In this document: piece after piece, positions 34,189-36,700 of the stretch | Position numbering within the stretch: the first letter of the stretch is position 1 | How the letters are laid out: the number at the start of each line of letters is the position of its first letter | Source: a virus | Direction: 5' to 3' (one strand) | DNA: 62,871 bases | Virus record (IMG/VR): IMGVR_UViG_3300032516_000020 | Location: 1 to 62,871 of that record | Notes under the pieces: model-generated | What the model was told of the DNA's origin: nothing | Databases searched by the model: none | What the model saw: only the letters and a program-made list of their open reading frames with translations | Position numbers and translations under genes: made by a program

Positions 34189-34422
34189 TTATAAAAATTG
34201 ATTAATTACTTGCATTATGCACAAGACAAACTTACTATCAACAGGAACAAGAAATGTATTTGCTATACTATGAGCAATTACAGCAGGTTTAATTCCTTCT
34301 CTAAGCATTAGTTTTCTATGTGCTTTATATTCTCCTTCATATGTACAATCAAGGAATATCTTTCTATTGTCTATAGATAGATATGGTTTGTCATACGTAT
34401 CAATGAATATTGTTGTCTCCAT
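34189..34422 (-). CDS. Hypothetical protein, 77 residues
   Basis: Starts METTIFIDTYDKPYLSIDNR and has a hydrophobic C-terminus (NTFLVPVDSKFVLCIMQVIN). Immediately downstream (3') of the structured RNA region in the leftward direction. No family recognised. Confidence 0.55.
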   Translation of the reverse strand: METTIFIDTYDKPYLSIDNRKIFLDCTYEGEYKAHRKLMLREGIKPAVIAHSIANTFLVPVDSKFVLCIMQVINQFL

Positions 34423-34463
34423 TTTATTTAAATTTAATTGATTTCAATGTTTGTTTGTCCCCT

Positions 34464-34599
34464 CTGCACTCAGATGTAATATGGTTCTCACTCGTAAACT
34501 ATAGACCTAAGCCCATAGACCCTATATTACATCTGTCCACCCTTGGGAAACTGATAGTGTAGGTGGACGTTTTCATCTCCTAATTGACTATCAGTGCAG
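34464..34599 (-). ncRNA. Pseudoknotted structured RNA candidate
   Basis: Four perfect helices, written in plus-strand coordinates. P1: CTGCACT 34464-34470 with 34593-34599. P4: CAGATGTAATAT 34471-34482 with 34524-34535 (12 bp). P3: GTCCACC 34535-34541 with GGTGGAC 34562-34568. P2: CTGATAGT 34551-34558 with ACTATCAG 34587-34594. P3 and P2 interleave (open-open-close-close), an H-type pseudoknot, and P1 encloses all. P1 and P2 compete for two bases. No long coding frame spans it. The leftward unit would carry it 5' of the 77-residue gene. A new cis-regulatory or trans-acting RNA is possible; no class recognised. Confidence 0.65.
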
Positions 34600-34637
34600 T
34601 TTTATATATATCTGCGTGGAATTGGTGCATTAAACAA

Positions 34638-34656
34638 AAGGACTATAATAGTCCTT
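34638..34656 (-). terminator. Palindromic hairpin at the end of a small zinc protein gene
   Basis: AAGGACTAT/ATAGTCCTT (34638-34646, 34648-34656) around a single base. TTTTGTTTAA follows on the minus strand, giving a modest T-tract. It overlaps the stop of the gene ending at 34655 and lies just before the structured RNA. Confidence 0.6.
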
Positions 34657-34921
34657 AATAACAATATCTCATCCAATCTGGTGTACCATCAAACATACTA
34701 GATGGTTCATAGTCTCCAAACAACTCATCAGCACAAACATCACATATCATTCTCTCTTCTTTTCTACCATCTGTCCACTCTGCTGTAGTTACTAAATGTC
34801 TTGGATCACCACAAGAATCATCTAATACATCACCACAATCATGACATACACATTTGTGCTTTTTAGGAGCATCAGGAAGTGTAATCTTTCCTATAACTTT
34901 AATACTATCCATAACAAACAT
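34655..34921 (-). CDS. Small protein with Cys-pair zinc motif, 88 residues
   Basis: CVCHDCGDVLDDSC and MICDVCADELF provide paired Cys clusters for a zinc fold. The C-terminus is acidic/aromatic (PSSMFDGTPDWMRYCY). Resembles phage small zinc-finger early proteins; no family recognised. Start could be 34912 (second Met). Confidence 0.6.
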   Translation of the reverse strand: MFVMDSIKVIGKITLPDAPKKHKCVCHDCGDVLDDSCGDPRHLVTTAEWTDGRKEERMICDVCADELFGDYEPSSMFDGTPDWMRYCY

Positions 34922-34965
34922 TGTCTTTTATAGAGGACATACTCTTTATGTGTGTAAAAAAACAA

Positions 34966-36346: not shown

Positions 36347-36700
36347 ATGGAACCAACAAAAGGAATATTACAGAAGCTCAGAAGGAAGGAAGACAATGAT
36401 CTCCTAATAGCAGAGAAATATTACACCATCCTTTCAGCTGTTAACAATCTCCATTTGACAAATAGAGAGATACAGCTTATAGCGTTTACAGCTGTTAAGG
36501 GGAACATTTCTTATTCTAATATTAGGCAGGAGTTTTGTGACATTTACAAGACAACAAGTCCAACGATTAATAATATAATCAGTAAGCTTAAGAAGATTAA
36601 AGTGCTAGTGAAGGATGGGACAAAAGTGAAGGTGAATAATATGATTGTTCTGGATTTTGCAAAGGACATAACATTAGAAATTAAGCTGACGCATGGATAA
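36347..36700 (+). CDS. Helix-turn-helix-like DNA-binding protein
   Basis: Start at ATG 36347 (117 residues); a TTG-based longer start at 36332 is rejected. LTNREIQLIAFTAVKGNISYSN then TTSPTINNIISKLKKIKVLV resemble a winged or LuxR-like helix-turn-helix, with the recognition helix near SPTINNIISKL. It has its own strong promoter at the head of the virion arm, so a late-gene regulator is a reasonable inference. Confidence 0.6.
   Translation: MEPTKGILQKLRRKEDNDLLIAEKYYTILSAVNNLHLTNREIQLIAFTAVKGNISYSNIRQEFCDIYKTTSPTINNIISKLKKIKVLVKDGTKVKVNNMIVLDFAKDITLEIKLTHG

Follow-up and report, generated by a model that had tools for sequence, protein, structure and literature searches.

Structured RNA in the leftward gene arm

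The window (the whole 62,871-nt stretch of viral DNA analysed here, IMG/VR record IMGVR_UViG_3300032516_000020) encodes a Crassvirus capsid protein (PF23898), in agreement with an earlier note, made from the sequence alone, that took it for a crAss-like phage. Between 33834 and 35350 its minus strand carries several small leftward genes, each followed by a terminator-like hairpin, and the terminator-like hairpin sites in the 3-kb region, counted on both strands, number 8 against 1.3 expected. The element described here occupies 34638-34454 of the minus strand, which is the sense strand for the flanking leftward genes, and its parts are located in Table 1. The earlier note had drawn a pseudoknotted non-coding RNA at 34464-34599 from four inverted repeats; all four repeats are present and the element is real, but it is not the RNA that was drawn: the 5' end at 34638-34616 (P1, putative cut site, P2 and P4a) was missed, and the element begins about 40 nt further 5'. 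The minus strand is predicted to fold at -48.1 kcal/mol versus -33.05 kcal/mol for shuffled sequences (z -4.24, with 0 of 200 shuffles as good), which implies structure beyond chance, in line with the note's remark that a random AT-rich spacer would rarely form such helices; the plus-strand fold of the region is weaker (z -1.93).

Table 1. Parts of the element and its immediate flanks in the window
Feature	Coordinates	Strand	Evidence or remark
Terminator-like hairpin AAGGACTATTATAGTCCTT, directly upstream of the element	34638-34656	-	Hairpin scan
P1 5' strand UUGUU (UUUGUU including U34638)	34633-34637	-	Pairs with 34455-34459; register z 8.4; 5/5 pairs co-vary
Putative cleavage site U34632/A34631 (A1 of twister), then A34630	34631-34632	-	AA in 189/196 readable rows
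P2 5' strand UGCAC	34625-34629	-	100% of cells paired; UGCG/CGCA double changes
P4 5' strand UCCAC	34616-34620	-	Pairs with 34536-34540; 5/5 pairs co-vary, 99.5% paired
P5-like hairpin GCAG-AUAUAUAUAAAA-CUGC, an optional insertion separating P4 from L4	34596-34615	-	Co-variation in 25 members
P6 hairpin ACUGAUAG...CUAUCAGU, loop with conserved CAATTAGGAGATGAAAACGTCCACCTAC	34550-34595	-	6-8 of 8 positions paired in 25 members
Loop L4 UUCCCAAGG	34541-34549	-	CCC 34547-34545 is T1 strand; nearly invariant
P4 3' strand GUGGA	34536-34540	-	Covariation analysis
PX 5' strand CAGAUGUAAUAU	34524-34535	-	Covariation analysis
Hypervariable PX loop domain	34483-34523	-	127 modules compared, few alike
PX 3' strand AUAUUACAUCUG	34471-34482	-	Covariation analysis
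P2 3' strand GUGCA	34465-34469	-	Covariation of P2
GAGGG: putative general-base G (34464), A, T1 strand GGG (34462-34460)	34460-34464	-	G-A in 170/173 readable rows
P1 3' strand GACAA, one U-G pair	34455-34459	-	Pairs with 34633-34637
Downstream small gene, 77 aa, no family match	34189-34422	-	Start codon 37 nt past GAGGG

Relatives of the element

Relatives were reached through a neighbouring gene, which led to contig L001. Both flanks of the element are about 99.5% identical between this contig and the window, but the element between them has diverged, and L001 lacks the gene at 34655-34921. The wider family was found via CCCAAGGGTGGACAGATGTA, common to the window and L001, and then via the 3' end CATCTGAGTGCAGAGGG; two more patterns had at least 120 matches each in the viral collection. 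Pattern scans of viral contigs together with a covariance model gave, in the loci collected, 224 matches at E<=0.001, a count in which a few loci overlap and some copies are perhaps included twice, and for which the E-values of the model are rough; as an estimate of family size it is a lower bound, because the pattern listings were capped. The window element scores 50.9 bits with this model (E 4.4e-12), its insert being misaligned; a second match in the window, at 36419-36531 (E 0.033), was rejected because the core letters are missing from it.

The 3' half played no part in the selection of members that were found through the 5' half, which makes the co-occurrence of the two halves independent evidence. 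The motif TGCAGAGGG lies within 350 nt in 122 of the 131 listed 5'-half members, and three more run off the contig; counted among the 128 with enough flank, the 122 compare with 9 of 5769 control windows, and five of the remaining six carry a small variant of the motif. For members found by the 3' end, the L4 loop lies upstream in 112 of the 130 listed.

Among 84,980 species genomes of bacteria and archaea the 5' pattern was matched four times, and only one match is real, a contig-edge copy in a lake MAG (L228); the others, in Staphylococcus, Bacilli and Parabacteroides genomes (L225-L227), were set aside as chance-like, the rest of the core being absent. Neither the element nor either of two compact members had a relevant BLAST match among 50,697 GenBank phage records, and one compact member compared with plasmids had none there. 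Rfam 15 yielded no relevant family for the window element in a gathering scan of the window or, for the element itself, even at E 10, nor in an E-value scan of a compact relative. Because compact members have no BLAST match in GenBank isolate phages and are missed by Rfam, this family of RNAs upstream of phage genes appears to be previously uncatalogued; a survey of the open-access literature found no description of it.

Conserved architecture and covariation

From 5' to 3' the family consists of P1, U/AA, P2 (UGCAC), a short joint, P4, an optional P5 and P6, the loop UUCCCAAGG, the second strand of P4 and the hairpin PX, followed by an A, the second strand of P2 (GUGCA), GA, GGG and the second strand of P1. 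PX reads CAGAUGUAAUA.../...UAUUACAUCUG and has a hypervariable tip. Across 39 members, 92.5% of cells hold standard pairs versus 31-53% for slid partners, and double changes occur at 16 pairs in 137 cells, which 0 of 500 shuffles reach; the shuffles and z-scores of this analysis take no account of phylogeny. The covariation in relatives that the earlier note had proposed as a check on its structure is thus strong.

Twister ribozymes have a U-A scissile step, a general-base G and an A at the cut, a pseudoknot T1 between L4 and L1, and an optional P3 and P5 (PMC5408937). The putative cut site of the family aligns with the U-A step at which twister cuts (PMC5408937; RF03160 alignment), the AA after it and the G-A ahead of the T1 strand are nearly constant (Table 1), the nucleotide before A1 is variable as in twister, and the GAGGG segment corresponds to L1 of RF03160. 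The consensus of the Rfam twister-P1 family (RF03160, clan CL00120) is ccuuUAAcgCcGCC[P3]GcCGGUCCCAAGCCCGggUAAAgGcgGAGGGaagg, a natural twister of a Bacillota genome detected with that model (L229) reads CCUUAAUGCAGCC...GGUCACAAGCC...AUGCAGAGUGAGG, and the phage family reads UUAAUGCAC...UUCCCAAGG...GUGCAGAGGG. The AA, the letters of P2, the G-A, the UNNNAAG loop and the alternative CAC/GUG or CCC/GGG forms of T1 coincide between family and twister, and L229 shares UUAAUGCA and UGCAGAG exactly with the phage family, as well as the U-NNN-AAG of L4. These coinciding letters predicted that P1 should leave a single nucleotide free ahead of AA and resume directly after GAGGG. A comparison of 16 registers with shuffled flanks in 90 members agreed: complementarity was found only in that register and its extension (z 8.4, 8.4 and 4.2 on one diagonal), the other registers lying within about ±2.

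The T1 pseudoknot, which was left outside the covariance model, joins the CCC inside the L4 loop (UU-CCC-AAGG) to GGG. Its forms among 173 readable members are CCC/GGG (162), CCA/UGG (3), CAC/GUG (3), UCC/GGA (1) and a UCC/GGG wobble (3), with compensatory changes at 3 of 3 pairs, and the lone apparent misfit, L111, is an inserted A. Three members (L092, L137 and L175) read TGCAAAGGG, with A in place of the putative general-base G, and are natural candidates for inactive ribozymes.

Two of the four helices in the earlier note are conserved. The 12-bp helix CAGATGTAATAT/ATATTACATCTG (P4 of the note) is the PX of the family, with 95.6% of cells paired and compensatory changes, and the 8-bp helix CTGATAGT/ACTATCAG is P6, which is kept with diverse sequences in 25 insert-bearing members (22 at 8/8 and three at 6-7/8). 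The variable P5/P6 insert is present in a minority of members, including the window copy, and P5 co-varies in the same 25 (GCAG/CTGC in 4, GTGG/CCAC in 17, GTAG/CTAC in 4); the sequence ATGGGTTCAATTCCCAT within the P6 loop of L024 and L214 resembles a tRNA T-arm. The two 7-bp helices are coincidental. For GTCCACC/GGTGGAC, the first arm is the conserved loop of P6, which is partnerless in L007 and L022, where GTGAG replaces GTGGA and the arms are not complementary, and L001 and L029 have GTGGA without the GTCCACC arm; the P6 hairpin of the window, its loop common to L007 and L022, corresponds to the note's P2 plus its false P3 arm. For the wrapping CTGCACT/AGTGCAG (P1 of the note), CTGC pairs with the upstream GCAG in P5, and the nearly constant AGTGCAG belongs mostly to P2. 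With these two helices coincidental, neither the H-type pseudoknot nor the coaxial stack of P1 and P4 that had been drawn is conserved among relatives; the pseudoknot that is conserved is T1 (CCC 34547-34545 with GGG 34462-34460), and the broader proposal of a conserved pseudoknotted non-coding RNA directly before a small gene is borne out.

The earlier note could name no RNA class for the element, which in fact resembles the twister ribozyme; its suggestions of a riboswitch, a trans-acting RNA or a decoy have no specific support. The leader position and the high conservation of the core would suit a new riboswitch that senses a metabolite or a protein, or a small RNA acting in trans, but the conserved letters are those of twister rather than of a new pocket, and such a role is rated as very unlikely. 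An attC-like site, a retron RNA, a group I intron and a guide RNA were abandoned as candidates after the twister letters, the T1 covariation and the P1 register had been found. Sequence comparison shows P1, P2, P4, PX, P5, P6 and T1, the retention of the twister catalytic letters and the placement of the element relative to genes, as well as an upstream hairpin in many members. The intergenic RNA of the window phage is therefore read, with good though incomplete confidence, as a self-cleaving ribozyme of the twister type, structurally variant and located in the 5' leader of a small early gene, and the family to which it belongs, of more than 200 members, is twister-like and probably self-cutting.

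Genomic context and predicted transcript processing

The carriers examined are mostly crAss-like phages, 18 of 20 sharing the terminase family of the window phage, and the element lies on the strand opposite terL in the window and in the carriers with both positions listed. From the usual crAss-like genome layout, and from the replication genes on the same strand here, we infer that the arm of the element is the early arm. The downstream gene is co-directional with the element in 104 cases versus 3 (104/107), and the position of the first start codon has a peak at 20-60 nt after GAGGG (36% versus 17%; 37 nt in the window). In 46 of 117 members (39%) the putative cut is preceded, at a distance of 3-10 nt, by the end of a perfect hairpin of at least 6 bp, versus 101 of 1101 control positions (9%).

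If the element is active, the transcript would cut itself between U34632 and A34631. The hairpin directly upstream (Table 1) would become the hairpin at the 3' end of the transcript lying upstream, and that message would then end a few nucleotides past its hairpin with a cyclic phosphate, while the mRNA of the downstream gene would carry a 5'-OH followed by a leader in a tight fold. A long early operon transcript would in this way be split into separate mRNAs with protected ends. PX, P5 and P6, which are hypervariable, are predicted to be peripheral, either as neutral spacers or as modulators of cutting. A wider scheme can be offered tentatively, in which crAss-like phages process mRNA by RNA alone: twister-like ribozymes with exchangeable domains would cut at early-operon junctions after protective hairpins, PX, P5 and P6 would tune or sense timing, and homing endonucleases would spread via the sites. 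With twister-like RNAs placed before their genes, uncultured phages may possess built-in scissors, made of RNA, for their own messages.

Twister ribozymes are widespread, and their physiological function has been described as unknown (PMC5052635). The phage family offers more than 200 copies in one setting, namely 5' leaders in the arm opposite terL of crAss-like phages, often after hairpins, and because this setting is single and defined, a function in operon processing is directly testable.

Sequence exchange, mobile DNA and neighbouring RNAs

The window (34478-34959) and L001 (3757-3951) differ sharply at this spot, and the 88-aa gene at 34655-34921, a weak match to phrog_2834, is present only in the window, whose version of the ribozyme also differs from that of L001. 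Among 127 PX modules compared, some recur in otherwise different cores. Genes for GIY-YIG homing endonucleases lie inside the twister-like element in L055 (1100-1891), L181 (3877-4461) and L207 (1324-1863 and 2022-2630), inserted at the L4 or P5 position and with NUMOD1 in two; the P4 strands in the two halves of the L181 element are mismatched, as if chimeric.

These three kinds of observation (very different versions at the same spot in phages that are about 99.5% identical, a few PX modules recurring in different cores, and GIY-YIG insertions) would also be expected if the element were mainly a DNA-level site of recombination or homing, its RNA fold being a host structure exploited by genes and endonucleases. 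The compensation of RNA pairing, including G-U pairs, the 104:3 orientation, the leader spacing and the placement of hairpins point instead to function at the level of the transcript, and the recombination-site reading is considered very unlikely. Under the preferred reading as a twister-like ribozyme, mobile DNA would act on top of ribozyme function, in keeping with the version differences, recurring modules and GIY-YIG insertions.

Clusters of three or four twister-like elements occur within 0.6-2.2 kb in L180 (4907-6160), L168 (9875-10476), L148 and L102, where cutting would release the short fragments lying between. The same phages carry a second RNA cassette, TACTCTCATCCAAGCAGG-[hypervariable stem]-CAAGGGTTGCAACCTTGTGAGAGTAC, in 35 copies (for example L095 7975-8090, with others in L097, L114, L145, L205 and some 20 further loci), often followed by a twister-like element after 100-300 nt. 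It has no Rfam match, and this second uncatalogued cassette could be another ribozyme class.

Comparison with known ribozymes

The phage family has the order of twister type P1 (P1, U/AA, P2, a P4 hairpin with a U-NNN-A-A-G loop, P2', G-A-NNN, P1'), with the same exact P1 register and the T1 pseudoknot. The UGCA of P2 is identical in the natural twister L229, and the L4 loop, GGUCCCAAGC in RF03160, is the nearly invariant UUCCCAAGG in the phage family, where P4 co-varies in all pairs. Unlike twister, the family has no P3, has P2 of 5 bp rather than 4, carries the P5/P6 insert in a minority of members, and in all members examined replaces the UAAA of J4/2 by the hypervariable hairpin PX. The pseudoknot T2 of twister (L2-L4) has no clear counterpart: its canonical GC/GC dinucleotides are not seen, and an alternative pair of C with the G of AAGG is invariant and thus can give no covariation signal. 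The carriers of the family are mostly crAss-like phages.

At E<=10, stretches from the window and from L062 had no match to the Rfam twister models, and RF03160 gave no match at a useful score over 15 carrier records. A model from which PX was deleted (R2) ranks two natural twisters near the top and in the right register, at E-values of 0.73 and 1.7 at which decoy loci score equally high. The replacement of J4/2, the other real differences and the non-significant R2 matches are the reasons for the name "twister-like variant" rather than plain twister.

The same differences bear on whether the RNA cuts at all. A twister-derived fold that had ceased to cut could serve as a structural 5' leader, stabilizing the mRNA, binding a protein or ligand, or controlling translation; the 5'-leader position and co-directionality would suit such a role, the hairpin in place of J4/2 and the lack of a clear T2 could have cost the RNA its activity, and three members have A for the putative general-base G. 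Against loss of cutting, conservation is among the highest at the letters of twister chemistry (A1, A2 and the G-A preceding T1) and other parts drift freely, while the nucleotide before A1 varies as it does in twister; an inactive leader is accordingly regarded as unlikely. The family also suggests that twister can tolerate a large hairpin in J4/2, and the GIY-YIG insertions suggest that a ribozyme gene can harbour genes for homing endonucleases.

Other self-cleaving classes (hatchet, pistol, hammerhead and twister-sister) are often found near phage genes (PMC10085705), but their conserved letters and topology differ from those of the phage family, and none matches the element in Rfam scans. 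One carrier, L045, has a hatchet ribozyme above the Rfam cut-off (191-325), about 1 kb upstream of its twister-like element. Rfam scans also gave no HDV-like match for the element. Theta ribozymes, which are HDV-like, abundant in uncultured gut phages, located next to tRNAs and proposed to process phage transcripts (PMC10879173), are a close parallel, being likewise abundant small ribozymes of uncultured gut phages with a proposed function in transcript processing; whereas theta ribozymes adjoin tRNAs, the phage family described here has a twister-like core and precedes protein genes.
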